A stretch of DNA of 32,502 nt from Kiritimatiellia bacterium (GTDB taxonomy: Bacteria > Verrucomicrobiota > Kiritimatiellia > RFP12 > JAAYLN01), in contig JAFSZJ010000012.1 in assembly GCA_017458965.1 (NCBI GenBank), forward strand, positions 1 through 32,502, given 5' to 3'. Every line of letters begins with the position of its first letter. Position 1 is the first letter of the stretch. This document shows, piece by piece, positions 5,118-32,502 of this stretch. The position numbers were made by a program, and so were the translations under genes. The notes beneath the pieces are model-generated. The model was given only the letters and a program-made list of their open reading frames with translations. It had not been told where the DNA came from and made no database searches.

Positions 5118-5133
5118 GGTGTGATCCTGAGTT

Positions 5134-5165
5134 GGAAAGTTGAGAAGTCGGGAAGTTGGGAAGTT
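5134..5165. repeat. Octamer tandem array (GGGAAGTT-like, 4 units)
   Basis: Four consecutive 8-nt units: GGAAAGTT, GAGAAGTC, GGGAAGTT, GGGAAGTT. They lie directly upstream of the oadA ribosome site and a G-rich run follows. Confidence 0.85.
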
Positions 5166-5235
5166 GCGGGGGGGGGCGGCGGGGGTGTCCGCGACAGGGC
5201 GCGGACGACAACACTCATATCAACATTGCAATCTG

Positions 5236-5333
5236 TTATCTATTACTTGTTATCTGTTATCTGTTTTCTATTACTTGTTATCTGTTATCTGTTATCTGTT
5301 ATCTATTATCTATTATCTGCTATCTGCTATCTG
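5236..5333. repeat. Heptamer tandem array (TTATCTG, 14 units)
   Basis: Fourteen 7-nt units in register, mostly TTATCTG or TTATCTA with a few TTACTTG, TTTTCTA and CTATCTG variants. The array fills the oadG-oadA intergenic space. It is AT-rich inside a GC-rich genome and reads open in several frames, so any peptide predicted from it (ICYLLSV-like) is an artefact. Confidence 0.93.
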
Positions 5334-5354
5334 CCTCGCCAGCGGCTACGCGCA

Positions 5355-5588
5355 CTAACGGCTACGCGCCACGGCTATGGCGATCGCTATCGCCTCGTCG
5401 TCGTTGGAGGCGGCCTTGGGCGCCGGCTTTTTCTTGGGCGCCTCGTCGGGGAGGATGTGGTTGAAGCGCGGGATGATCTTGGCGGACAGCGTCGTGACGG
5501 CCACGAGCACCGCCAGGAAGAAATACACGATCCCCATGCCGGAGATGAGAAGCACGACGCCTTGCTTGATAAGTTCAGTTCTGTCCAT
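5355..5588 (-). CDS. oadG: Oxaloacetate decarboxylase gamma subunit-like membrane protein
   Basis: A 77-residue protein with one N-terminal membrane segment (ELIKQGVVLLISGMGIVYFF and on to about residue 34), then a Pro/Lys/Ala-rich cytoplasmic tail with DEAPKKKPAPK. This is the plan of OadG, the small subunit that anchors the Na+-pumping decarboxylase and binds Zn. The initiator at 5588 is chosen because GGAAGGG precedes it; a longer frame starts inside the upstream terminator. It is the first gene of an oadG-oadA unit. The tail is shorter than in many OadG proteins and ends in an Ala/Ile run of low complexity next to the repeat array. Confidence 0.75.
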   Translation of the reverse strand: MDRTELIKQGVVLLISGMGIVYFFLAVLVAVTTLSAKIIPRFNHILPDEAPKKKPAPKAASNDDEAIAIAIAVARSR

Positions 5589-5622
5589 TTGCAGAAAACC
5601 CTTCCGTGAGTAATCATCTAGG

Positions 5623-8583: not shown

Positions 8584-9939
8584 CTACCTGTTGCGGCGGA
8601 TCAGGACGAAGGCCAGGACGAGGCATACGACCGAGGGGATCCAGATCAGGATGTGCGGGTGGAACTCCGGTTTCTTCGCCACGCTCTTGGCGAGGATCAG
8701 GAACGCGTAGTAGAGGATCATGATGCCAAGGCTTATCGCGGCGCCGATGTTCGATTCGCGCCGGCTCGTGCGCATGCCCAGGGGGATGCCTATGAGCAGG
8801 AAAACCATCGGGGCGACGCCAAGCGCGAAGCGGCGGTTGAGCTCCGTGCGCATCTCCGATATCTTCCGCTCCTTCTCCTTCTGCGATTTGACGGCGTTCG
8901 CGAGGCGGGTCTCGTAGGAGGATGTGGTCGAAAGCCTGTCTTCCGTCTCCTGCGCGGCCTGCGCCACCGACGCCATGGCGTTGGAGTACGCAGGATCGTC
9001 CATCATGGCGGCAGGCTCGAAGCCGGCGGCGGCGAGGCGGTTCGATATCGCCTCGGCCTGCCCATGCATTTCCGCCAGCACCCCCCTGAGGCGTTCAAGG
9101 TCCGCGTGGGAATCGGCTATCTGCGCACGGCGTCCGTCAAGGCCGGCCACGATCTCGGCCACTTCGTCGGAGGTGCTCGCTATGGACGCGCTGAGCTCGC
9201 CGTTCAGGAAGCCGCCGACGCGCGGCTTGTACTGCGCCGGCGCGATCACGCCCTTGATGGTGTGGACGAGGCGCTCGGCCGTGGCTGCGCCGGGCTGCGT
9301 GGCCGAGAACGGGTCTATGCGCACGGAGCGCATGTCCAGCGTGATGTCGGGTTCGGCGATGGTGACCAGAGCCGATTCCGCCCTTATCTCGCGGATGAAG
9401 TTCGGGTCGGAGCGGTCGTATATGAGCACGTCGTAGAGGGTGTCGCCCTCCTTGCGGGCGAAGCGAACCGTCATGCCGGGGAACTCGTCGATGAAGCGGC
9501 CTGGCTCAAGGAGCTTGACGGCGCTCATGCCCCTTGCGCTAGTGGCGATCAGATGACGCGCGAGGTATCCGCGCGGCGCGACGAACGAGTTGACGAATAT
9601 CGACACGGCCGCAAGCGCGACCCCGAATGCCGCAAGCGGCGCCACCACCGTCCAGAGGTTGATACCGCACGCCCTCATAGCGCTTGTCTCGCCATCGGAG
9701 GACAGCCGTCCGAAGACGAGCAGTGCGCTCACCAGCACGGACAGCGGTATCGTGAACGAGAACGATTCCGGTACGCTTACGAAGAGGAAGTTGAGAATAA
9801 GCCCTGGCGCGAGTCCCTTGATGACGAGTTGCGTCGCCTTTACCAGGAGGCCGATGGAGAGCACGAACGTCAGGACAACCATGCCCAGCATGAAGGCCGA
9901 GACATAGCTTGAGAGGACGTATCGCTGGAGAATCTTCAT
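8584..9939 (-). CDS. LptF/LptG-family lipopolysaccharide export permease
   Basis: A YjgP/YjgQ-type protein of 451 residues from the ATG at 9939. Three N-terminal membrane helices (starting ILQRYVLSSYVSAFMLGMVV) are followed by a large periplasmic domain that includes an unusually long helical stretch (about residues 240-340, Ala/Glu/Arg-rich, coiled-coil-like). Three C-terminal helices end in VLAFVLIRRNR. Such permeases pull LPS from the inner membrane with LptB, so the cell should have an LPS-type outer membrane. I cannot say whether it is LptF or LptG. No ribosome site precedes the ATG: the upstream DNA is a heptamer array that stays open in the same frame and would add STIHYPL-type repeats if an earlier TTG at 10056 were used. 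I prefer 9939. Confidence 0.82.
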   Translation of the reverse strand: MKILQRYVLSSYVSAFMLGMVVLTFVLSIGLLVKATQLVIKGLAPGLILNFLFVSVPESFSFTIPLSVLVSALLVFGRLSSDGETSAMRACGINLWTVVAPLAAFGVALAAVSIFVNSFVAPRGYLARHLIATSARGMSAVKLLEPGRFIDEFPGMTVRFARKEGDTLYDVLIYDRSDPNFIREIRAESALVTIAEPDITLDMRSVRIDPFSATQPGAATAERLVHTIKGVIAPAQYKPRVGGFLNGELSASIASTSDEVAEIVAGLDGRRAQIADSHADLERLRGVLAEMHGQAEAISNRLAAAGFEPAAMMDDPAYSNAMASVAQAAQETEDRLSTTSSYETRLANAVKSQKEKERKISEMRTELNRRFALGVAPMVFLLIGIPLGMRTSRRESNIGAAISLGIMILYYAFLILAKSVAKKPEFHPHILIWIPSVVCLVLAFVLIRRNR

Positions 9940-9954
9940 CAGATAGGAGATAGT

Positions 9955-10045
9955 GGATAGTGGATAGTGGATAGTGGATAGTGAATAGTGGATAGTGGAT
10001 AGTGAATAGTGAATAGTGGAAAGTGGATAGTGGATAGTGGAAAGT
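9955..10045. repeat. Heptamer tandem array (GGATAGT, 13 units)
   Basis: Thirteen consecutive 7-nt units, mostly GGATAGT with GAATAGT and GGAAAGT variants, lie immediately upstream of the LptF-like start. A short run of the other heptamer (TTATCTG-type) lies nearby at 10074-10092. Confidence 0.93.
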
Positions 10046-10097
10046 GGATGGCCCAATGAGGAGGGCGTTGTATCTTTTATCTGTTATCTATGTGGCA

Positions 10098-16367: not shown

Positions 16368-16409
16368 CATTTCGCCGCCCGGATCGCCGCTCGCGGCGCC
16401 GGCGAAATG
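16368..16409. other. Nested hairpin in the 16.0-16.6 kb gene-free region
   Basis: Outer arms CATTTCGCCG (16368-16377) and CGGCGAAATG (16400-16409) enclose inner arms CGCCGC (16385-16390) and GCGGCG (16393-16398). All arms are perfectly complementary. Smaller hairpins lie nearby, such as TCGCGCT-CT-AGCGCGA at 16244-16259. No gene is seen in 16000-16634. Confidence 0.75.
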
Positions 16410-16467
16410 CACGGCCGCAACTCCCCGCGACGCCGCGCGTCACATGACGACTCATTTCCCATGCGGA

Positions 16468-16563
16468 CGCGAAGGTGGCGGAGGAACAAGGGCTTGCGGA
16501 AGGCGGGCGTCGCAACGCGACGATCCGGCCCGCCAGACGAAGCCCGCTTCCGCCACCTTCGCG
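16468..16563. other. Long four-tier nested hairpin
   Basis: Outer arms of 15 bp (CGCGAAGGTGGCGGA at 16468-16482 with TCCGCCACCTTCGCG at 16549-16563) enclose GGGCTT/AAGCCC (16490-16495 with 16540-16545). Inside these lie GGCGGGC/GCCCGCC (16502-16508 with 16528-16534) and a tip GTCGC-AAC-GCGAC (16509-16521). In all, 33 perfect base pairs lie in 96 nt. The element could be a structured RNA, a cruciform DNA or a mobile palindrome. No T-run follows on either strand. Confidence 0.8.
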
Positions 16564-16630
16564 CAAGAGATCGCCCACTATCGTCGCGCCAAAGGCGCAG
16601 TTAAACCCGCTGGCATTCCGCTCTCGCCCC

Positions 16631-16654
16631 AAGTGTGCAAGTTTGCAAGTGTGC
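16631..16654. repeat. Octamer tandem array (AAGTGTGC, 3 units)
   Basis: AAGTGTGC, AAGTTTGC, AAGTGTGC in register, at the very start of the truncated surface-protein frame. It supports the view that the first part of that frame is not original coding sequence. Confidence 0.8.
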
Positions 16655-19337
16655 AAGCAGCCAGCATCCAACAACCAGTGCCAGTATCAGTTTCATTGGT
16701 GCTGGTGCTGACATTGTGTATTGGGTATTTGCACACTTTCACTACTGGCAGAATTCCATGCTCATCGGGTATGGCCAAAACACCTTCGCCTCTCTATGCG
16801 GCATGAGGTTGGCGAAATACTCCATCGACAGCAGATTCGTCAAGGACTCGCAGACGCTCTCGGTCAACGGCGCGGTCCGCGCCACGCGCACGGTAAACTC
16901 CGAGTACGACACGGGGCTCAACCTCTACCTCTTCGCCTGCAACAAGGACGGCTCGCCCGACTACTACACCAAGGGGCGCATCTACTCGCTCAGGATATGG
17001 GACCTCGCCGATGGCGAGCGCGACAGCCTCCTGCGCGACTTCCGTCCCTGCCTCGACGGCAATGGCGTCCCGTGCCTCTACGACGCCGTCACGGACGGCT
17101 ACTTCTACGACGCGCGATCCGGGACATTCGCCTACAAGACGTTAGATCCGCCCCAGGCCGCGACCGTCGATCACTACGTCGAGTACATCCAGAGCGACGG
17201 CACGCAGTTCATAGACACCGGCATAATCCCCATGCACGGCATGAAGTCGTCGCTTAGGATGAGCTTCGTCCAGGTGCCGGCAGACGGCGGCATCCTCTGC
17301 CTCCGCGAAAACGGCCACAGATTCTACCTTGCGCACTATTACCCGGGCAACAAAGGCTTTTTCTACGCCAACAGCGGCACCGCGAACATCCCCGCCAACG
17401 ACCATCTGGCGACTGCGGGAACCATTTACACGATACAGACCGACGTCTTCCGCAACGTGCGCAACTTCAATGTGAACGGCGAGGAAGTCGGGCCAAGATA
17501 TGATGGCGACAAAACCGACACCGCGATGCTGACGAAGACGTTGTACCTGTTCGGACTCCACGACGACGACACGTTCAGATACCCATCCAGCATGAAGCTC
17601 TACGAATGCACGATCTGGGCCTCCCCGCTGAACCTCAGGAGCGACGGCGAACTCGTCATGCTTGCCGACTACCATCCCTGCGTCGATACCGACGGCGTGG
17701 CGGGGCTCTACGACACCGTCTCCGGGCGTATTCTCTACAATAGCCGAAGCACCGGCAACGCCTTCGTCGCTGGACCTTCGCTTTCAACTGCGGCGCGCGT
17801 CATCGCCTCGAACGGCACGGAGTTCGAGGGCACCGCGTCGCCGGCATACGGCACCGACGACACCGTGGCGCAGGGAAACGTGACGACCTACACCTGCACC
17901 CGTTTCGTCACCAACGAGGTCGGGACGCTCTTCGAGTGCGTCGGCTACACGACCGCGACGAGCGAGGACGGCAGCTTCTGGAGCGCCGAGAGCGCGCTCG
18001 TCGGAAGCCGCAGCGCCACGCTGGAATATCCGGGCGGCTGGTGGCGGCTCACGTGGAACTGGCAGCGCGCCGGCTTCCACATTTCCACGATCACGCCGGA
18101 AGGGGCAACGGTGTCCGTCGCCTCGCAGGAAACCGACTATCCCGAAGGCTACTACGTTGACAACGAGAGCGTCGTCTTCACGGCCAGCGAAACGGACGGG
18201 GACGGCAACACATTCGCGGGCTGGACCGGCGACATCCCCTCTGGCGTCTTCGACGCGCGGCGATCCATCCCGATTGTCGCGAACGCCGATAAGACCATAA
18301 CGGCCCTCTACCGCCACGAATGGAGAATCGAGTCAATCTCCGGAAGCGTCACGAACATCACGGACGGAATCTGGACTGTCGAGGTCGAGAACGGCGTCGT
18401 CGGCAGGATATCCGAAGGCTACGGCCCGCTCGACTTTACGAACGTCGAGCGCGACCTCGGCTTCAAGATCACCTCGTTCAAGTCGTGGATGCCCAACACC
18501 TCCCATCTCGGCCCAAAGAACATCACGGCGATCATCGCCCCGGACGCCACGAGCGTCGAGGCCCTTACCTTCGTCGACTGCAAATATCTCGAGCGCGCCG
18601 TCCTCTCGCCCGCGCTGAACCACCTCGGTCGCAGCGCCTTCTACCGCTGCACCGCGCTAACATCGATTTCGCCATCGCTGTCGCAGTACTTCTCCCAGGC
18701 GGTGAACATGACGACCAACGACATCTTCGTCTTCCGCTATTGCGGGAATCTCGCCGAGGACATCGTCGTCGAGCGGCGGAAAAGCGCAGGACCGCTCGTC
18801 CTCCCCGACTCGTACTTTGAGCAAGCCGGCATCATCTCGGTTGACTTCTCCAAATGCCGCGGGAGGGTCGATCTGAGGACATTCGATTATGGCGGCATGG
18901 GAGGAGACTATTTGGGCACTTTCCGGCGCTGCGCCAACATGAGGACAATGACGCTCAACCCGAATCTGGTGGAGATCCCGCGCGGGATGTGCTGGGGGCA
19001 TGAGCGCCTCACCGACCTCTACATCACCGGGCGCCTTCCCGCGCCCGAGGACATCGGCGGGTTCTACTCATTCGAGTTCCACAAGCTCAGGATCCACGTC
19101 TCGAAGACGCTCAACCCGAACGTCGTGGCCGACCTCCAGCTGCGCGAGCCGACGGAAGCCGAGATGGCCCTTGCGACATTCCCGCGCGAGGCATACGAGG
19201 CCGGAAAGCTGCTTGGCGTGTGGGACCAGCCGACCGCCGGTTGGGGTGAGCTTGAATCCGACGGCAAGTTCCGCCAGATGTGGGTCCTCGACTGGACTCC
19301 GCCCTCCGAAACCGCGACATACCTCCTGGTGAGGTAG
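16635..19337 (+). CDS. LamG/InlB-repeat/LRR surface protein, apparently 5'-truncated
   Basis: The frame is open for 900 codons, but protein-like sequence begins only around residue 40 (NSMLIGYGQ). It opens inside a LamG-type domain whose front half, including the family's EYIQSDGTQYIDTG opening, is missing. A complete second LamG domain follows (HYVEYIQSDGTQFIDTG to about residue 375). Next come an InlB/Flg_new-like repeat (TFAGWTGDIPSG...ITALYRHEW, about 500-560) and a BspA-type leucine-rich region (about 590-830). No signal peptide, ribosome site or promoter is visible. The two intact relatives at 25357 and 31688 share a promoter block and a signal peptide that are absent here. It is either a broken gene cut at the repeat mosaic just upstream, or a silent donor cassette. 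Confidence 0.6.
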   Translation: MQVCKCASSQHPTTSASISFIGAGADIVYWVFAHFHYWQNSMLIGYGQNTFASLCGMRLAKYSIDSRFVKDSQTLSVNGAVRATRTVNSEYDTGLNLYLFACNKDGSPDYYTKGRIYSLRIWDLADGERDSLLRDFRPCLDGNGVPCLYDAVTDGYFYDARSGTFAYKTLDPPQAATVDHYVEYIQSDGTQFIDTGIIPMHGMKSSLRMSFVQVPADGGILCLRENGHRFYLAHYYPGNKGFFYANSGTANIPANDHLATAGTIYTIQTDVFRNVRNFNVNGEEVGPRYDGDKTDTAMLTKTLYLFGLHDDDTFRYPSSMKLYECTIWASPLNLRSDGELVMLADYHPCVDTDGVAGLYDTVSGRILYNSRSTGNAFVAGPSLSTAARVIASNGTEFEGTASPAYGTDDTVAQGNVTTYTCTRFVTNEVGTLFECVGYTTATSEDGSFWSAESALVGSRSATLEYPGGWWRLTWNWQRAGFHISTITPEGATVSVASQETDYPEGYYVDNESVVFTASETDGDGNTFAGWTGDIPSGVFDARRSIPIVANADKTITALYRHEWRIESISGSVTNITDGIWTVEVENGVVGRISEGYGPLDFTNVERDLGFKITSFKSWMPNTSHLGPKNITAIIAPDATSVEALTFVDCKYLERAVLSPALNHLGRSAFYRCTALTSISPSLSQYFSQAVNMTTNDIFVFRYCGNLAEDIVVERRKSAGPLVLPDSYFEQAGIISVDFSKCRGRVDLRTFDYGGMGGDYLGTFRRCANMRTMTLNPNLVEIPRGMCWGHERLTDLYITGRLPAPEDIGGFYSFEFHKLRIHVSKTLNPNVVADLQLREPTEAEMALATFPREAYEAGKLLGVWDQPTAGWGELESDGKFRQMWVLDWTPPSETATYLLVR

Positions 19338-23625: not shown

Positions 23626-23649
23626 CGGCCGGGGATATCGCCCTTGCCG

Positions 23650-23678
23650 TTGGTTTGCATGAAACCAAACAGTATGAT
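23650..23678 (+). promoter_or_regulatory. Promoter with overlapping palindromic operator for the first AAA+ ATPase
   Basis: TTGGTT (23650-23655), a 17-nt spacer and TATGAT (23673-23678) form a sigma70-like promoter whose transcript would begin about 7 nt before the ATG at 23692. The palindrome TTGGTTT-GCATG-AAACCAA (23650-23668) covers the -35 box, so it looks like a repressor site. A second -10-like TATGGT lies at 23683. Confidence 0.55.
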
Positions 23679-23691
23679 ACAGTATGGTTCC

Positions 23692-24819
23692 ATGAAAGCG
23701 GGAAACAAGTGCGGCAATCCTTTTCGGTACGGATGCGTGGTAGAGGGTGGGTTCTATTGCCCGAGACCAAGGCTCGAAAAGCAGCTGTCAGGTTTCATTG
23801 AGGCCGGGCAGAATGTCGTCATACATGGCGAGAGGCGTATGGGGAAGACTTCCCTGATAAATGCCGTAGTCCATGGAATGCGCGGTTGGCGGATGCTTTA
23901 TGTCGATATGCTTCACGTGATGACAGTCGGTGACATCTGCCGCAGGATTGTCTCGGCTGTGCGAAACATGGAAGGCAAGGCTTCGCTGTTCGAGAAGGCC
24001 TTGAGGCTTTTACCGAGACTGAGGCCTGTCATGAAGGTTGATCCCGCAACTGGCGAGGTCGGCTTTGGCCTGGACGCCCGCGCAGCGGAAGATCCCTACG
24101 CCGTGGAGGAAGTCCTTGATATGCTTGCAAAAGTGGCGGCAAAAGGGCGGACGGTTATTGTGTTCGACGAATTCCAGGACGTCGCCAATGTCGCGGAAGC
24201 GCAGACCGTGTTGGCTCTAATGCGTGGCCGAATCCAATTTCAGGGCGACATACCGTATGTTTTCACCGGTAGTGTAAGAAGCCGCATGATTGACCTATTT
24301 GACAATCCGGACAGCGCGTTCTACAAGTCGGCGCTCACCTTGTGCGTCGGGGAGATTGACCATGATGCGTTCTCGTCGTTTCTTCGCCGTCGTTTTGAGA
24401 TCGGGAACCGGCGCATTTCAGAGGAGACCGTTGAGGCCATCATGTCCACGGTCGCGGACGTTCCAGGTGACGCACAGCAACTGTGCGAGGCCGTGTGGGG
24501 CGTGACGACGGAATCCGTCGAGCCGGAGGATGTCGATGCCGCGCTACAGGTCGTGTTCATGCGTGAAGGCGATAAATTCGAGAGCTTTTGCGAACGTCTT
24601 TCCCCAGTGCAGTTCAAACTGCTTCTGGCCATAGCCCGCAACGGGGGAAGGGAGATTCAATCGCGCCGATTTCTCGACGAAGCCGACATTGGCAACGCCG
24701 CCGCGGCCCGAAAAGCGGCGATGCGTCTCTGCGAATTGCGGCACATCTACTTCTTCCGTGGCGAATATCGGTTCGCCAGCATGTTTTTCAGGGCTTGGCT
24801 CCTGCGTCGCGGCTACTGA
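23692..24819 (+). CDS. AAA+ ATPase of the archaeal-type ATPase_2 (GxRRxGKT) group
   Basis: 375 residues from the ATG at 23692. Walker A is GERRMGKT (46-53), Walker B is VIVFDEFQD (155-163), and the sensor strand YVFTGSVRSRM is visible. The C-terminus is a winged-helix domain (LSPVQFKLLLAIARNGG to ASMFFRAWLLRR). The group is common in archaea, Bacteroidetes and PVC bacteria, usually as stand-alone genes of unknown role. The window holds a second member at 29468. No Shine-Dalgarno site precedes the ATG and the promoter lies a few bases away, so the mRNA is probably leaderless or nearly so. Codon use is less GC-biased than in the preceding operon, which hints at transfer. Confidence 0.8.
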   Translation: MKAGNKCGNPFRYGCVVEGGFYCPRPRLEKQLSGFIEAGQNVVIHGERRMGKTSLINAVVHGMRGWRMLYVDMLHVMTVGDICRRIVSAVRNMEGKASLFEKALRLLPRLRPVMKVDPATGEVGFGLDARAAEDPYAVEEVLDMLAKVAAKGRTVIVFDEFQDVANVAEAQTVLALMRGRIQFQGDIPYVFTGSVRSRMIDLFDNPDSAFYKSALTLCVGEIDHDAFSSFLRRRFEIGNRRISEETVEAIMSTVADVPGDAQQLCEAVWGVTTESVEPEDVDAALQVVFMREGDKFESFCERLSPVQFKLLLAIARNGGREIQSRRFLDEADIGNAAAARKAAMRLCELRHIYFFRGEYRFASMFFRAWLLRRGY

Positions 24820-25297: not shown

Positions 25298-25304
25298 TTC
25301 GTCC

Positions 25305-25333
25305 TTGACGCCTGATATTTTTTTTTCTAGGAT
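25305..25333 (+). promoter_or_regulatory. Poly-T spacer promoter, copy A (T9, 17-nt spacer)
   Basis: TTGACG (25305-25310), then CCTGATA plus nine T plus C as a 17-nt spacer, then TAGGAT (25328-25333). AGGGGA precedes the ATG at 25357. The same block lies upstream of the surface gene at 31688 with eleven T and a 19-nt spacer. A T-run that sets the -35/-10 distance is a classic site for slipped-strand phase variation. With 17 nt this copy should be on. Confidence 0.72.
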
Positions 25334-25356
25334 ATTCGCGGAATAGGGGAAAAACC

Positions 25357-28300
25357 ATGAAGACAACAACACGCCTTTCACTTTCCATTTTCAACTTTAC
25401 ACTCGCGGCGGCGCTCGCTGTCGCCGCGCTCGCGGCGCCGGCACACGCGACGACGATAGCCCCGTCGAACTACGAGCACTCTATGACGATCAGGCCGACG
25501 ACGGGCAAGGTGACATCGACGCTCACAGGCTTCCCGCTGCTCGTGCGCCTCTCGACGGTGCGACAGCCTTGGTTCAACCCGCTTGAATGCGGCGCGAATG
25601 GCACGGACCTCCGCTTCGCCCTCGCGGACGGCACGCTCCTCGCCCACGAGATCGACACGTGGAGCGAATCGGGTGAGTCGGTCGTCTGGGTCAACCTCCC
25701 GACGCTCACCGCCTCCACCGAGATCAAGGCGTACTGGGGCGTGAAGGATTCTTCGCTCGCGCCGGCGGTGACGGCGAGCGACACCTGGTCCGACTACGTC
25801 GCCGTTTATCACCTCGGCGAAGGGGACCGGATCGCCTACGACTCCTCGGCAAACGGCTACAGCGCGACGAACGCCGCCGCAGTGTCGCTTGGGTCGAATC
25901 CCAGGGTGGGCGGCTGCGCCAACATCCACGACCTATATGTGACAGGCGTGACGAATCTCCTTGACACGAATGCCGCGAAGCCGCTTTCCAACAGGTCGAG
26001 CATCACCTTCTCCGCATGGGTGGCGATCGACAACTTCAATACCGGCAACAACACCTACGCCCAGAACGCGCGCGTCGAAATCGCAAGGAAATTCAACGGC
26101 GTTGCCGCAGACCGGCACAAGGGCGGTTTCAGCTGCCGGTATTTCGCCAACCTCAACTATCCTCCTAAAAACAACAACCCGCTTTTTGGCATTTTCCTAG
26201 ATGACAGCACCGGGATTAGCAGCACGGTTGAAAACTGGAACACCCATAATGCTCCGCCAAGCGATGGAGCCTGGCTCTACCTGACCTGCACAATCAATGG
26301 CACGACCGTTGCGAAATACATCAACGGTGCACTGTTGGCGGATTCTGACGGGAAAGGCAATCCGCGAAACTTAAGCCACGGCATCCTCGGGCCAGACGTG
26401 CTTCCGCTCGACTTCGGCGCCGCCGACAATTCCACCGCCTGCTCGACATACGCCCGAATGGACGAGATGCGCATCCGCGACGGCGCGGTTTCCGCTGCGT
26501 GGGCGGCGGCGGACTATGCGCAGCAGAACGAAGACGATTTCCTCGAATTCGAGGGCGAGCTGACCGGCTCCTTCGTGGTCTCGCCGATCCCCGACCAGGT
26601 TGTCATGTCCTACGAGGACATTTCGGGCGGCGTCACGCCGTCCGTGACGGTCGAGAACGTCGATGCGCAGGCCGAACTCGTACTCAACACGGACTACACA
26701 GTCGCCTACTCCAACAACACGGCGGCCGGCACCGCATACGCGATCGTCGCCGGCCTCGGCGGCTACGCGGCCAACACGAACGTGGTCGCGTTCCAGATCC
26801 GCGTCATCGCGAACTACTACATCGTCGATATCGACCATAGTGCCAATCTCGACGCGATAAACACATCGTCCATATCCGGCGAAGCCGGCGCGACCGGCTG
26901 GTCAACGACGCAGGGCGGCTCCAGGTCCGTGAACGGCATCACCGAGGATGACGCCATCTACCACGTCTGGACCAACCGCTCCGTCCGCACGCCGCTGCGC
27001 CTTAACTACTCGACGCCGCTGTCATCCTCAATCATCGTCGAACCGTCGTGCGAATGGGAACTCCTCGACAAGTTGTGTGGCAACACGCTCACCCTGAACA
27101 ACGTTACGATTGGCGCTGGCGCGACGCTGAAGTTTTCGCCAGCAAACGACAGCGACGAGCGCAACGACACGCTCGCCGGCACTTTCACCCTCGAGGATGG
27201 TGCGACGCTACGGGTCTCTGCCTCCAAGGACCGGGACTCCGCAAGGTGGATGACCCTCTCCGCAAGCGTCACGGGGCGCGGCGCGATCTTCATGCCCTCG
27301 ACGACCACCGAGTACACATACTCCGGCGTCCTTGAAAACAAGATAGTCGGCGACATAACCGGCTTCACCGGCGACATCGGAACGTGGAACGGCAACAACC
27401 CCACATCCTTGGAACTCGTGTACGCCGACTCGCTCCCCGGCGACCCCGAGCCCGGAGAGGTCGCCTACGTCGTCGTCACGAACTCCGCGACGTTGAAGGT
27501 CGATAACAACTGGGTCTCGCCGACGAACCGCATCTGGATCCTTGGCGACGCCGGCACGCCGACAATCGAGGTTCCGGCCGGCATGACGGTTGAGATCAAC
27601 GGCGACCTGGTCGGCTCGGTCGGCTTCGTCAAGACCGGCGCTGGGACGCTCGTCCTGCGCGGCGCGTCGCCCGATTTCTCCGGCGAGATCACGATTTCGG
27701 CCGGTACGCTGCGCCTCTCCGGCAAGGCGGCGCTACTCAGCAGCGCGGCGGACGTGACGATCACGGAGGCGGGCGGTCTCCTCGAAGTCGCGTCGCTCTC
27801 CATCTCGCCCATTCCGGAGCAGACGGTTTATTCGCTCGAAAACCTCGCCGACGGCGTGAAGCCGACGCTGGTCGTCTCGAACCTCGACGCGCATGCCGAA
27901 CTCGTCCTTGGCACCGACTACACCGTGGCATACTTGAACAACACGACGTCGGGCGTCGCGACGGCCATTGTGTCGGGCATCAACGACTTCGAGGGAATGG
28001 TGAAGTCAAGGGACTTCATCATCCATGCGGTCAAGAGGATTACGGCGAGCATCAACCTTGCCGGTGACGAGGACTGGTCGGGCTTCGAGTCCATTTCCGT
28101 CGTGTCGGATGGCGTCACGCTCGACCTCAAGGGCCACAAGCTGACGATCACCGGACTGGACGGCCTCGGCCGTGTTACAGACACTGTCGGCGGCGGAGAA
28201 CTCCACTACTACGTGCCCGCAACCTACGCGAGCGGCTACGAGGCGAAGATCGAGAACGTCTCGCTAATGGGCCTGCTCAAGCTCGTCAAGGAGGGCGAGG

Positions 28301-29244
28301 GCGTCCTCACTGCGATCAAGACGCAGCAGTCGTACACTGGCGGCACCGTGATCGACGGCGGCATCCTCAGGTATGGATGCACCGACAAGAACATCGACAA
28401 CATGTATCCGTTCGGCGCAAAGTCTGCGGACAGCCCGATAACGATCAATGCCGGCGGCGTTCTTGACCCGGCAGGTTCGATGGGCTGGGGAAACCACTAC
28501 GTTGTTTTCAACGGCGGCACCGTCTCGAACACCGTTCTATGGGCCGCTACAACCTACGGCGTCTTCAACCCGCACCAAATCGTCAATGCCGACTTCACCT
28601 TCGCCACCATGCGGAACTACGGTTGGGCTGTCGGCGAGCTCGATGGCCATACCGCCACCGTTTACGTTGCCATGGGCGACGCGACGCTCTTCCTCCAAAG
28701 CCATCCCTCGGAGCCGCCGACGTCCGGATGCCTAAATGTCGTGCTGGGCGGTTACATCTCGACCTTCGCTCCAATTCTGAACCGGCCTACCGCTTTCGAG
28801 AACGTCGATTTCCTGTGCAATGCCGCGCTGCGGCTTAATGATACTGCGCCGTTGTCGTTCCGGGATTATGCCGCGAACTATCTCTATAACTACAGCTGGG
28901 GCTACGCTGCGTTGAACGTCTATGGAACTTTCACGCCGAACAGCGACTACTTCTACGGCCCCGTGATGCAGGACGGCTCGACGATTGATCTTTCGGGGAA
29001 GACAGGCGCGTGGAACGTCACAGGATCACTTTCCTCTGGTAGCGCGACGACCACGTTCGCCTCCGGCGCGACAGTCACGGTTGAATTGGGCGACAGGGCC
29101 ATCAGAAAGGGCGACAAGGTCATTTCATGGACGACCCAGCCCGACGCGACCTTCACAAGCAGGGCGTGGCTCTTCGAGTCGCGCGCCGATGGCCTCTACG
29201 TGACTGGCAAGAACGCCAGGGCGACGATCATCACCCTGCGGTAG
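25357..29244 (+). CDS. Giant secreted DUF2341/LamG protein with autotransporter-type beta-strand repeats
   Basis: A 1295-residue protein with a signal peptide (residues 1-31, ending PAHA). A DUF2341-like domain (about 45-120: TGFPLLVRLS ... EIKAYWG) and a LamG/concanavalin-like domain (about 125-400) come first. A module of about 78 residues (SPIPDQVVMSYEDISGG ... TDYTVAYSNNT) occurs near 407 and again near 814 (SPIPEQTVYSLENLADG ... TDYTVAYLNNT). Autotransporter-associated beta-strand repeats (FVKTGAGTLVLRG...GTLRLSG near 755; LVKEGEGVL...GTVIDGGILRYG near 975) predict a long beta-helix. No beta-barrel translocator or known sorting signal ends the protein; the last residues are ATIITLR. It probably binds glycans at the surface. 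The promoter has a poly-T spacer (see 25305). Confidence 0.85.
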   Translation: MKTTTRLSLSIFNFTLAAALAVAALAAPAHATTIAPSNYEHSMTIRPTTGKVTSTLTGFPLLVRLSTVRQPWFNPLECGANGTDLRFALADGTLLAHEIDTWSESGESVVWVNLPTLTASTEIKAYWGVKDSSLAPAVTASDTWSDYVAVYHLGEGDRIAYDSSANGYSATNAAAVSLGSNPRVGGCANIHDLYVTGVTNLLDTNAAKPLSNRSSITFSAWVAIDNFNTGNNTYAQNARVEIARKFNGVAADRHKGGFSCRYFANLNYPPKNNNPLFGIFLDDSTGISSTVENWNTHNAPPSDGAWLYLTCTINGTTVAKYINGALLADSDGKGNPRNLSHGILGPDVLPLDFGAADNSTACSTYARMDEMRIRDGAVSAAWAAADYAQQNEDDFLEFEGELTGSFVVSPIPDQVVMSYEDISGGVTPSVTVENVDAQAELVLNTDYTVAYSNNTAAGTAYAIVAGLGGYAANTNVVAFQIRVIANYYIVDIDHSANLDAINTSSISGEAGATGWSTTQGGSRSVNGITEDDAIYHVWTNRSVRTPLRLNYSTPLSSSIIVEPSCEWELLDKLCGNTLTLNNVTIGAGATLKFSPANDSDERNDTLAGTFTLEDGATLRVSASKDRDSARWMTLSASVTGRGAIFMPSTTTEYTYSGVLENKIVGDITGFTGDIGTWNGNNPTSLELVYADSLPGDPEPGEVAYVVVTNSATLKVDNNWVSPTNRIWILGDAGTPTIEVPAGMTVEINGDLVGSVGFVKTGAGTLVLRGASPDFSGEITISAGTLRLSGKAALLSSAADVTITEAGGLLEVASLSISPIPEQTVYSLENLADGVKPTLVVSNLDAHAELVLGTDYTVAYLNNTTSGVATAIVSGINDFEGMVKSRDFIIHAVKRITASINLAGDEDWSGFESISVVSDGVTLDLKGHKLTITGLDGLGRVTDTVGGGELHYYVPATYASGYEAKIENVSLMGLLKLVKEGEGVLTAIKTQQSYTGGTVIDGGILRYGCTDKNIDNMYPFGAKSADSPITINAGGVLDPAGSMGWGNHYVVFNGGTVSNTVLWAATTYGVFNPHQIVNADFTFATMRNYGWAVGELDGHTATVYVAMGDATLFLQSHPSEPPTSGCLNVVLGGYISTFAPILNRPTAFENVDFLCNAALRLNDTAPLSFRDYAANYLYNYSWGYAALNVYGTFTPNSDYFYGPVMQDGSTIDLSGKTGAWNVTGSLSSGSATTTFASGATVTVELGDRAIRKGDKVISWTTQPDATFTSRAWLFESRADGLYVTGKNARATIITLR

Positions 29245-29258
29245 CGCATGGTGAAGAT

Positions 29259-29290
29259 GCGGTTAAGAAGTTAAGCGGTTATGCGGTTAA
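29259..29290. repeat. Octamer tandem array (GCGGTTAA, 4 units)
   Basis: GCGGTTAA, GAAGTTAA, GCGGTTAT, GCGGTTAA in register, just downstream of the giant surface gene. Confidence 0.85.
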
Positions 29291-29431
29291 GCCGTGCCTT
29301 CGTTCAAGTGCAATTGCCATCGCTGTCATTGGTAGCATTGCTGGCATTGAGAGTTGATGGACATTGATGGAGATTCGCTGGCGTTCGCGCCGGCGACGCG
29401 AACATCCATCACGTCATTTGCGTCACGGAAC

Positions 29432-29460
29432 TTGCGTGATAACGGCCGCTCTGCTAGAAT
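29432..29460 (+). promoter_or_regulatory. Promoter of the second AAA+ ATPase, predicted leaderless
   Basis: TTGCGT (29432-29437), exactly 17 nt, then TAGAAT (29455-29460) preceded by TGC, an extended -10. The ATG is at 29468, about where transcription should start, and no ribosome site exists between them. Confidence 0.6.
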
Positions 29461-29467
29461 TCCCATC

Positions 29468-30583
29468 ATGAAACTTACGAATCCCTTCGTTCTTGCCGGA
29501 TATCGTGGGCCGGAATACTTTTGCGACAGGGTCAAGGAAACCGCGAAGCTTTGCCGCGCCATACGCAATGACGGCAACGTTACGCTTTTGTCCCCCCGCA
29601 GATACGGGAAGACCGGGCTGATCATGAACGCCTTTCGCGAACTCCGCGAGGGCGGGGAATGGAGCACCATCTACATCGACATATTTGGTACGCAGAACAT
29701 GGCGGACTTCACCCAGGCCCTGGCGAACGCCACGGTCGGTCATCTTGACACGCCTTTTGAGAAAGTCGAAGGCGCGGCCAGGAGAATCATAAAGGGGGTA
29801 AGGCCAACCGTCACATACGACGAGGCGAGCGGACAGCCCTCGCTTTCGTTTGACATAACGTCCGACACCGCGCGAAAGACGCTTGAGGAGGTCTTCGCAT
29901 ACTTGGCAGAGCGGAAGCGAAGGACGGTCATAGCGATAGACGAATTCCAGCAGATAGGCAACTACCCGGAAAAGGGCGTGGAGGCCACGCTGCGGGGCTT
30001 TGTGCAATTCTCGCCCGTCCGCTTTGTCTTCGCCGGGTCAAAGCAGCATCTCATGCGAGACATGTTCACGTCTCCAAAAAGGCCGTTTTTCCAGTCAACG
30101 ACAATGATGCCGCTAGGTGTGATTGACGAGGAGCCGTATTACGCCTTTGCCGGGAAGTTCTTCCGCGATGCGGGGCGCAAGCTTGATCGCAAGGTGTTTG
30201 CCGAACTGTACCGCCGCTTTGACGGCATTACATGGTACCTACAGGCGATACTTTGGGACTTCTATGCCTCCGGCGAAGACATCTCGGACGTGGAGCAGCT
30301 TGAGGACGCCATATCCCAGCGCATAGATGCGAACGAATACGATGAGCAGAGATTGCTGGAACTTCTTCCGGACGGCGCCAGGCGACTGCTCAAAGCGATC
30401 GCGCTGGAGGGAAGCGTCGCCGCGCCCCAGTCAAGCGCATTTGTCTCGCGTCATAGGCTCCGGGCGCCGAGCAGCGTAAAGACTTCCCTTGACATGCTTC
30501 TGGAAAAGGAACTCGTCTATCGCAACCCGGACGGATACGTCGTCTACGACAGGTTCCTTGCGGAGTATCTACGCAGGCGCTAG
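29468..30583 (+). CDS. AAA+ ATPase of the archaeal-type ATPase_2 group, second paralogue
   Basis: 371 residues from the ATG at 29468; a longer frame from 29354 crosses the promoter. Walker A is SPRRYGKT (42-49; Ser for the first Gly, common in this group), Walker B is VIAIDEFQQ (154-162), the sensor strand is FVFAGSKQHLM, and a C-terminal winged helix ends VVYDRFLAEYLRRR. It shares plan and length with the ATPase at 23692 but little direct identity, so the two are old paralogues or separate arrivals. The role is unknown. The gene lies between a surface protein and a VapBC pair, and its base composition is less GC-rich than that of the core genes to the left. Confidence 0.8.
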   Translation: MKLTNPFVLAGYRGPEYFCDRVKETAKLCRAIRNDGNVTLLSPRRYGKTGLIMNAFRELREGGEWSTIYIDIFGTQNMADFTQALANATVGHLDTPFEKVEGAARRIIKGVRPTVTYDEASGQPSLSFDITSDTARKTLEEVFAYLAERKRRTVIAIDEFQQIGNYPEKGVEATLRGFVQFSPVRFVFAGSKQHLMRDMFTSPKRPFFQSTTMMPLGVIDEEPYYAFAGKFFRDAGRKLDRKVFAELYRRFDGITWYLQAILWDFYASGEDISDVEQLEDAISQRIDANEYDEQRLLELLPDGARRLLKAIALEGSVAAPQSSAFVSRHRLRAPSSVKTSLDMLLEKELVYRNPDGYVVYDRFLAEYLRRR

Positions 30584-30835
30584 AGCGGTTCCAAATAATC
30601 TGTAGCCGCAACATTCATGTCACGCGACGTGCACGGTTGCGTGGCAGAGCCAGCGGAATATCTCACGCGGAGGCGCAGAGGTTGCGAAGGCGACACCGAG
30701 TGGACGCAGACGCGCCACGCACATGGCGCATCGGCCCTGTGGCACCCTTTGCGTTTTACCCGCGAAAATCCGCATCATCATCTGATAGCATTGTCACCAA
30801 GATGTGCAATCACAAGTGCTGTTAGGAGGCGTCAA

Positions 30836-31087
30836 ATGAAGACCATGACAATACGAAACATACCAGACGGCGTGGCGGATTACCTTTCAAGCCGCGCCGC
30901 GAGCGAAGGGCGAAGTGTCAATTCAACTATCGTCTCGCTCTTGACAAGGGCGGCGGGGCTGGAGCCCAACAATCGCAAACGCCGTGACCTTTCCTGGCTC
31001 TCTGGCACCTGGACTGCTGCCGATGTTCGCAACTTTGACGCCGCCGTGGCCGAGTGCCGGACTGTCAGCCCGGAGGACTGGAAGTGA
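30836..31087 (+). CDS. vapB: VapB/FitA-like ribbon-helix-helix antitoxin
   Basis: An 83-residue protein preceded by a strong TTAGGAGG site that fixes the start. The N-terminal strand MKTMTIRNIPDGVADYL and helices ...AASEGRSVNSTIVSLLTRAAG match the ribbon-helix-helix DNA-binding fold of FitA/VapB antitoxins. The C-terminal tail (DLSWLSGTWTAADVRNFDAAV) would wrap the toxin. It should bind and neutralise the PIN toxin encoded next, and repress its own promoter. Its stop overlaps the toxin start by 4 nt (GTGA). The 252-bp gap upstream (30584-30835) holds no gene I can support and no convincing promoter. Confidence 0.88.
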   Translation: MKTMTIRNIPDGVADYLSSRAASEGRSVNSTIVSLLTRAAGLEPNNRKRRDLSWLSGTWTAADVRNFDAAVAECRTVSPEDWK

Positions 31088-31473
31088 GAATCTGCCTTGA
31101 CGCCAACGCCTACAGCGCCATATGCCGCGGTAACGCCGCAGTCAGGGCGCTTGTCGAGGAGGCGGACGAAGTATTCCTTCCGGCCACAGTGCTAGGGGAA
31201 CTTGTCTTCGGTTTTCTCAAGGGAGCGAAGTTCTCGCAAAACGAGGCTGCGCTTAACCGCTTCCTCGAACAGGATGGCGTATCTCTTCTGCCTGTGTCGC
31301 GAGGCATTGCCGAACGCTACGGGTATGTCAAGGCCGCGCTGAAGAAGAATGGCACACCCATCCCCGAAAATGACATCTGGATAGCGGCTGCGGCTTTGGA
31401 GACAGGCTCTAGGCTCGTGTCATTCGACACGGACTTTGACAATGTGGGCGGTCTGGTCCGTCTCGCGCCATAG
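31084..31473 (+). CDS. vapC: VapC/FitB-like PIN-domain toxin
   Basis: A 129-residue PIN ribonuclease starting at GTG 31084, which overlaps the antitoxin stop in GTGA; the overlap decides the start. The acidic active site is complete: Asp6 in CLDANAYSA, Glu39 in VLGELVFG, Asp97 in IPENDIWIAA and Asp115/Asp117 in VSFDTDFD. Family members cut tRNA or rRNA when the antitoxin is degraded. The motifs place it with the FitB-like branch. It forms the only toxin-antitoxin pair in the window and may stabilise the accessory stretch around it. Confidence 0.9.
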   Translation: MRICLDANAYSAICRGNAAVRALVEEADEVFLPATVLGELVFGFLKGAKFSQNEAALNRFLEQDGVSLLPVSRGIAERYGYVKAALKKNGTPIPENDIWIAAAALETGSRLVSFDTDFDNVGGLVRLAP

Positions 31474-31515
31474 AGGCGCCACAGGCTCCGTTGGAACTGG
31501 GATAGCGCCTCAGAT

Positions 31516-31539
31516 ATCCCGGTAACCCGATATCCCGGA
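31516..31539. repeat. Octamer tandem array (ATCGGGTT-like, 3 units, inverse)
   Basis: On the minus strand TCCGGGAT, ATCGGGTT, ACCGGGAT. Sixteen nt (31523-31538) are identical, inverted, to 19406-19421, so this array type is dispersed. Confidence 0.7.
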
Positions 31540-31542
31540 AAT

Positions 31543-31601
31543 CGACATTCGACGGCCGGCAACCGACATCCGGGTTGTCGGACGCCGGTTGTCGAATGTC
31601 G
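31543..31601. other. Nested hairpin between vapC and the last surface gene
   Basis: Outer arms CGACATTCGAC (31543-31553) and GTCGAATGTCG (31591-31601) enclose CCGGC/GCCGG (31556-31560 with 31584-31588) and CCGACA/TGTCGG (31563-31568 with 31576-31581) with a 7-nt loop. The 22 bp are interrupted only by 2-nt symmetric mismatches. It has no T-run, so a simple terminator role is doubtful. Confidence 0.75.
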
Positions 31602-31628
31602 CTTAAATCTCTTAGCGTCAATTCGCCC

Positions 31629-31659
31629 TTGACGCCTGATATTTTTTTTTTTCTAAGAT
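31629..31659 (+). promoter_or_regulatory. Poly-T spacer promoter, copy B (T11, 19-nt spacer)
   Basis: TTGACG (31629-31634), a 19-nt spacer with eleven T, then TAAGAT (31654-31659). It is homologous to 25305-25333 and the similarity continues to the ribosome site (TAGGAG here). The spacer is 2 nt longer than optimal, so expression should be weak. An inverted repeat, GCGTCAA-N7-TTGACGC (31615-31635), overlaps the -35 box in this copy only. Confidence 0.68.
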
Positions 31660-31687
31660 ATCCGTGGAATTAGGAGAAAAACCACCG

Positions 31688-32502
31688 ATGGCAAAAATAC
31701 ACTTCGCATTTTCCACTCTCCACTTAACACTTGCCGTCGCGACGCTTAGCGCCGCGACGGCGTCCGCCGCCGCGCTGCCGGACGCGTACACCGCCGTCGA
31801 GTACATCCAGAGCGACGGCACACAGTACATCGACACCGGGGTTGTGCCGAAGACAACGACGCGCGTCGTCTGCGACTTCCGCCTCACCGCGATGCCGTCC
31901 GACCGCGTTCGCTGCGGCTGGGCGTCGGCCGGCAGCAAGGAGGCCTTCTGGTTCGGCACCGACAACGACCATGCGAACTTCTCCGCCTCCGTTTGCGGGA
32001 ACTCCGTCCAGGCCAACACCGGCGTCCCGGTCGACACCACCCGCCACACCTTCGACATCTCGATGTCGGCCGTCAAGTTCGACGACGCCACTGTCGCCAA
32101 TCCCGGGGCGGCCTTCACGGACGCCGCCAGCGGCAACACGATGTATCTCTTCGCCTCGCGCCAGGGGTGGAACCCGAACATCGGCGCCTACGGCAGCATG
32201 GAGATCTATTCCTGCCAGATCTACGATGGCACCACGCTCACGCGCGACTTCGTTCCCGCCGTTCGCCTTTCGGACGGCGCGGCCGGGCTCTACGAAACGG
32301 GAAACGGGGTTTTCTACGAAAATCAGGGTTTGGGTGACTTTAGCGCCGGGCCGGCGAAGTCGGCTGACTACTATGTCGCCGTCGAATACATCGAGTCGGA
32401 CGGCGACCAGTACATCGACACGCTCTTCACCCTCGGCAGCAACCACGTCTCCACCATCGAAGTCCAGCCTACGGAGCTGCCGACCATTAACGGAACGGGC
32501 AC
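31688..32502 (+). CDS. Secreted LamG-repeat surface protein, partial
   Basis: The frame runs open from ATG 31688 off the right edge (271 codons seen). AGGAG lies 11 nt upstream. A signal peptide (residues 1-28, ending ATASAA) leads directly into a LamG-type domain starting YTAVEYIQSDGTQYIDTG. The domain closes with the typical IYSCQIYDG ... DFVPAVRLSDGAAGLYE near residue 210, and a second LamG domain begins YYVAVEYIESDGDQYIDT. Such tandem LamG domains bind carbohydrate or protein ligands outside the cell. Its promoter block and signal-peptide DNA resemble those of the gene at 25357. The truncated gene at 16635 shows what an intact member of this family loses without them. Confidence 0.85.
   Translation, partial: MAKIHFAFSTLHLTLAVATLSAATASAAALPDAYTAVEYIQSDGTQYIDTGVVPKTTTRVVCDFRLTAMPSDRVRCGWASAGSKEAFWFGTDNDHANFSASVCGNSVQANTGVPVDTTRHTFDISMSAVKFDDATVANPGAAFTDAASGNTMYLFASRQGWNPNIGAYGSMEIYSCQIYDGTTLTRDFVPAVRLSDGAAGLYETGNGVFYENQGLGDFSAGPAKSADYYVAVEYIESDGDQYIDTLFTLGSNHVSTIEVQPTELPTINGTG

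Follow-up and report, generated by a model that had tools for sequence, protein, structure and literature searches.

The window, that is, the whole stretch of DNA that was analysed (32,502 nucleotides, contig JAFSZJ010000012.1 of a Kiritimatiellia bacterium), carries two genes for predicted secreted proteins on the forward strand, each preceded by a similar promoter-like block with a run of T. Gene a encodes a protein of 1295 aa, and gene b runs into the contig end and has many relatives in the order. The signal peptides of both were read by eye, and the surface location is a prediction. The preliminary description of this DNA had called the products two LamG adhesins, which holds for gene a as far as its LamG_3 and PATR domains go; the visible part of gene b gave no Pfam match, and adhesion is established for neither. 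A search of the gene set with the gene a product did not return gene b, nor did the reciprocal search return gene a, and by these protein comparisons the two mature proteins are unrelated past the signal peptide. Between the two genes (29354-31473) lie an AAA protein of the ATPase_2 type and a FitA-like antitoxin with a PIN (VapC-like) toxin, and a second AAA protein of the ATPase_2 type was found before gene a (23644-24819). The features of the two copies are as follows.

25298..25406, + strand: copy a of the 5' module common to both genes, with promoter, ribosome site and start of the signal peptide; 79% identity to copy b over 113 columns
25305..25310, + strand: predicted -35 box TTGACG of copy a (sequence; TTGAC-N17-TAnnnT is enriched in this genome)
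25318..25326, + strand: T9 run within the 17-nt spacer of copy a (sequence, copy alignment, genome run count)
25328..25333, + strand: predicted -10 box TAGGAT of copy a (-10 box scan)
25345..25349, + strand: probable ribosome site AGGGG of copy a (sequence)
25357..29244, + strand: gene a, predicted secreted protein with LamG_3 and PATR (gene call, Pfam match)
31622..31734, + strand: copy b of the shared 5' module (alignment to copy a)
31629..31634, + strand: predicted -35 box TTGACG of copy b (sequence)
31642..31652, + strand: T11 run within the 19-nt spacer of copy b (sequence, genome run count)
31654..31659, + strand: predicted -10 box TAAGAT of copy b (-10 box scan)
31672..31676, + strand: probable ribosome site AGGAG of copy b (sequence)
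31688..32502, + strand: gene b, predicted secreted protein ending at the contig end (gene call, protein search)

Copy a (25305-25333) reads TTGACGCCTGATA-T9-C-TAGGAT with a spacer of 17, and copy b (31629-31659) reads TTGACGCCTGATA-T11-C-TAAGAT with a spacer of 19. The -35 box and the upstream part of the spacer are repeated exactly, and in both copies the homopolymer lies between the predicted -35 and -10 boxes. The coordinates, hexamers, T counts and spacers in the preliminary description were exact on re-reading, and the similarity that it had traced as far as the ribosome site was found to extend on into the signal peptide (25298-25406 versus 31622-31734). This similarity begins about 7 bases before the -35 box and fades within the signal peptide, with 54 of 62 columns matching from the promoter to the start and 44 of 72 after the start codon, while the 40 bases upstream of the module match at only 8 positions.

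A profile search of the genome with this module returned a third copy before another secreted-protein gene (L144:16565-16677, E 7e-13), which starts only at the -10 box, without TTGAC or a T-run, and a weaker fourth copy at a signal peptide (L186:12841). These further copies indicate that the 5' module is one that has been copied in front of different predicted secreted proteins, with the T-run in two of the copies. In the family, a DNA search with the 113-bp module returned copy b and otherwise, for the most part, short stretches of similarity to simple repeats of the CTTTCCAC type, together with a small number of gene-start regions, and these were set aside. Such degenerate heptamer-like tandem repeats (CTTTCCAC, CTATCCA, TAACCAC and others) are abundant between genes, at 8584-10056 and 5121-5609 of the window and also in L038, L044, L121, L134 and L170, and some enter the coding start of a signal peptide; they are reminiscent of the short tandem repeats of cyanobacteria. 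Another repeat, dispersed and about 210 bp long, lies at 16381-16588 of the window and has relatives at roughly 15 or more places in the genome; because several of these sit at contig ends, it probably breaks the assembly. Directly after it lies a EYIQSDGTQYIDTG-type surface-protein gene (16635-19337) whose signal peptide and the beginning of whose first domain seem to be missing; this gene seems to be 5'-truncated or silent.

The 18-base core TTGACGCCTGATATTTTT occurred twice in the window with up to 3 mismatches allowed, against 0.01 expected, and this paired occurrence is far above chance. Genome-wide, searches with 1 mismatch, with the downstream half and with 4 mismatches gave two copies only, both in the window, the extra weak matches at 4 mismatches all being without a T-run. 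When all copies of the motif followed by a T-run were collected in this and related genomes, as the preliminary description had proposed, only copies a and b were found. Matches with one mismatch in the order lay mostly within coding sequence, had no T-run and were rejected. The motif including the -10 box gave 14 scattered matches in 84,980 species genomes, mostly AT-rich ones, which we read as chance, and none in IMG/VR.

The draft genome that holds the window is 63% complete; its 122 contigs amount to 1,750,765 bases with a GC content of 63%. Runs of A or T of lengths 5 to 11 numbered 631, 117, 34, 7, 2, 2 and 1, so that only five in 1.75 Mb reach at least 9; two of these are the T9 of copy a and the T11 of copy b, and no A/T run in the genome is longer than the latter (at 31642), which is the sole run of 11. 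The T9 and T11 runs are thus true outliers for a genome of 63% GC. Long runs of other bases were also observed, namely a C12 in a short reading frame just past a signal peptide (L123:10453, G000:C69), which is a possible coding slippage site, a G15 in an upstream region (L130:2496, G000:C76) and a C13 at a contig end (L139:4336, G000:C85).

To determine the spacing preferred by the organism's own promoters, 696 regions of 60 bases or more that lie upstream of called genes were scanned for TTGAC-N-TAnnnT and compared with shuffles. As a result, spacer 17 was observed 17 times versus 0.7 in shuffles and spacer 18 9 times versus 0.5, while in the same regions there was no excess at spacer 16 (0 versus 0.4), at spacer 19 (2 versus 0.8, one of the 2 being copy b) or at spacer 20 (1 versus 0.3). 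Judging from this enrichment at 17 and 18, the organism uses sigma70-type promoters with sharp spacing, and copies a and b, whose boxes are predicted, look like real promoters of this type. Their T-run lengths put the spacers within (17) and outside (19) the preferred 17/18, and the earlier claim that the length of the run sets the -35/-10 spacing was borne out. No alternative -10 hexamer with a TA...T frame was found within reach of the -35 box of copy b when other spacers were scanned. Since 17/18 is preferred and 19 shows no enrichment, we expect activity from copy a and a weak promoter in copy b.

An order-wide search was performed in 157 genomes for runs of at least eight T between TTGAC and TAnnnT. 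Among the 27 further sites listed, 24 had a spacer of 17 or 18 (5.4 expected with free gaps), and none had 19. When runs of at least seven T were allowed, 64 of 88 distinct sites fell at 17/18 versus 17.6 expected, and 6 fell at 19, some of which have another -10 reading 2 bases earlier. The commonest form in the order is T7-T9, then GG or GA, then a TATAAT-like box. In relatives, T-tract spacers precede NusA, D-Ala-D-Ala ligase (Ddl), glutamate 5-kinase (ProB), peroxiredoxin, a MurJ-like protein (scoring below the family cut-off), a tRNA-Ser/tRNA-Gly pair and secreted proteins. In species pairs the T8 was the same before ProB, the MurJ-like protein, NusA, a glycosyltransferase and tRNA-Ser, a stability that is overstated because the sites were gathered with a minimum T-run of at least 8 and shorter orthologous runs would be missed; for the T8 site of one relative no counterpart was found in the sister species, which is uninformative. 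Since T7-T9 spacers are common at 17/18 and precede constitutive genes, the poly-T spacer is mainly a promoter form in the order and in itself no sign of switching. The step taken in the preliminary description, from a poly-T spacer to phase variation, thus found no support in these relatives, where T8 was moreover kept between species. Copy a (T9, spacer 17) fits the T-tract form of the order (TTGAC, T7-T9, TAnnnT, spacer 17/18) and copy b (T11, spacer 19) lies outside it, being the only promoter spacer with at least ten T among 346 genomes of the class. In relatives, 33 of the 64 sites at 17/18 carry a G, GG or GA after the T-run and before the -10 box, which makes it common but not universal. 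Copies a and b have a single C at this position and may differ in promoter form from the T-tract promoters of relatives, because they are without the G(G/A) before the -10 box.

As a base-swap control, the same order search was performed with A7 in place of T. The poly-A spacers were more widely spread than the poly-T ones and included multi-copy families. Family X, TTGACGGCAAAC-An-TGC-TAAATT with close variants, has A7, A8 or A9 between otherwise near-identical flanks, which gives spacers of 16, 17 and 18. In G069 there are ten copies, some with A7 (spacer 16) and the others with A9 (spacer 18), and for each length three of them have identical flanks. G121 holds five, all of them A7 or A8. 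Of these five, three lie within about 10 kb (G121:C59, at 9778, 15122 and 19873), and one (G121:C11:54643-54670) lies 739 bp upstream of a match to the gene b product (C11:55409-55648). The sites of the family include G121:C38:17037 and others in G059 and G068. Family Y is a conserved promoter-like site, TTGACAGG-An-TCG-TATAAT, with runs from A7 to A13 and unusually short, varying spacers of 13-17; it is found usually once or twice per genome in about a dozen genomes (G049, G054, G058, G059, G061, G069, G072, G087, G097, G119, G123 and G160). These poly-A families are stronger candidates for slippage-controlled expression than copies a and b. In viral contigs the poly-A family gave one match without an A-run, which was taken as chance.

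Promoter homopolymers of this kind have been described in other bacteria. In opc and porA of Neisseria meningitidis, which encode outer-membrane proteins, a promoter homopolymer sets the distance between the boxes (Sarkari 1994, van der Ende 1995, both as cited in PMC5084427), as the T-run does here by its position; however, for those genes it was demonstrated that the length varies and that expression changes with it, whereas here the difference is known from two paralogues, and the run consists of T, as is usual for tract-bearing spacers in this lineage. Every vlp gene of Mycoplasma hyorhinis has a poly-A run in its promoter (Citti and Wise 1995, as cited in PMC10502178), so that there, too, surface-protein genes have a promoter region in common in which an A/T homopolymer differs in length. 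The vlp genes, however, form a lipoprotein family with demonstrated switching, unlike genes a and b with their unrelated mature proteins, and the poly-A families of relatives are closer to vlp than copies a and b are. The promoter of sabA, a surface-protein gene of Helicobacter pylori, has a poly-T tract whose length tunes output (PMC4081817), although this tract is not part of the spacer: it adjoins the -35 box and works via DNA shape and UP-like elements. The promoter A-tract of nspA of N. meningitidis also differs in length, by one base among strains, and alters expression (PMC6389960); unlike copies a and b it has no -35 box, and although its length differs it gave no sign of phase variation, a caution that holds for the two copies as well. 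Within the Verrucomicrobia, the genome of Akkermansia muciniphila has long homopolymers as possible slippage loci (PMC3048395), but these sit inside genes and slippage there is predicted only. By analogy, copies a and b would work like, and may be, a switch of the opc, porA or vlp type, a kind defined by a run length that varies within a population and by reversible changes of expression.

The reading that we favour, and hold to be moderately probable, is that of a duplicated 5' module in which the T-run sets promoter strength, copy a being on and copy b weak or off, with any switching incidental. One module, with a sigma70-type promoter, a T-tract spacer, a ribosome site and a signal-peptide start, would have been copied before two otherwise unrelated genes, and the length of the T-run would fix the -35/-10 distance. 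With T9 and a spacer of 17, copy a would be at the organism's optimum and is predicted to be on; with T11 and a spacer of 19, copy b would be beyond the normal range of the organism's own and its relatives' promoters, so that we expect it to be weak or off. From the observed sequences, shared module and spacing preference we infer transcription, relative strength and slippage at the two copies. The T-run would be a promoter element first, because poly-T spacers are widespread in the order and serve constitutive genes, although the poly-A spacer families in relatives, which vary in length, are a counterpoint. Switching, if any, would most likely be an incidental or local property of the over-long run of copy b, where occasional slippage to T9 or T10 would bring the spacing back into the working range.

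That copy b is phase-variable is a plausible hypothesis. A true phase variation, in which frequent and reversible slipped-strand mispairing would turn each gene on (T9/T10) or off (T11, T8) independently as a selected bet-hedging of surface proteins, appears possible but rather unlikely. The two spacers lying inside and outside the working range would suit it, as would the exceptional T11 in genome and class, the secreted products, one of them with LamG, the variable poly-A promoter families of relatives with one copy upstream of a gene b homologue, and the precedents of opc, porA and vlp (PMC5084427, PMC10502178). Against it, the comparison is one of two paralogues, in which a 2-base difference needs one or two slips since the duplication and many other positions differ too; the poly-T spacers of relatives precede constitutive genes and keep T8, only two such loci exist in the genome, and MutS is present, as judged by motif. 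It is less probable still that the difference is fixed, copy b having drifted to a longer run with a weaker promoter, or one tolerated since expression is set otherwise, with no switching at all. Homopolymers change fastest in any duplicated promoter, and the nspA A-run varies among strains without evidence of phase variation (PMC6389960); however, gene b seems to be in use, because its -35 region, ribosome site and start are kept and its frame is open to the contig end. That the T11 is an assembly or sequencing error, both promoters really having the same or nearly the same length, we regard as very improbable: homopolymers are the usual site of length errors and the metagenome draft is only 63% complete in 122 contigs, but runs of 9 to 11 are within short-read reach, a 2-base error is less likely than a 1-base one, and an A/T run of 11 occurs nowhere else in the genome.

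On a wider scale, slippage-prone A/T spacer runs (poly-T here, poly-A of A7, A8 or A9 in related genomes) might serve the order as a common switch for large repertoires of surface proteins, new proteins receiving the promoter and the start of the signal peptide through copying of the module; we offer this as a speculative suggestion that is more doubtful than not. In the literature collection that was searched, no paper joined Kiritimatiellae with phase variation. If the T-run does switch, it would represent promoter-spacer phase variation in a lineage for which none has seemingly been described, and it would give a handle on surface variation in an uncultured group. Even without switching, the T-tract spacer is a normal promoter feature of the order, and therefore a poly-T run alone should not be called a contingency locus there. 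The multi-copy poly-A promoters of relatives would be the first place to look for such switching.
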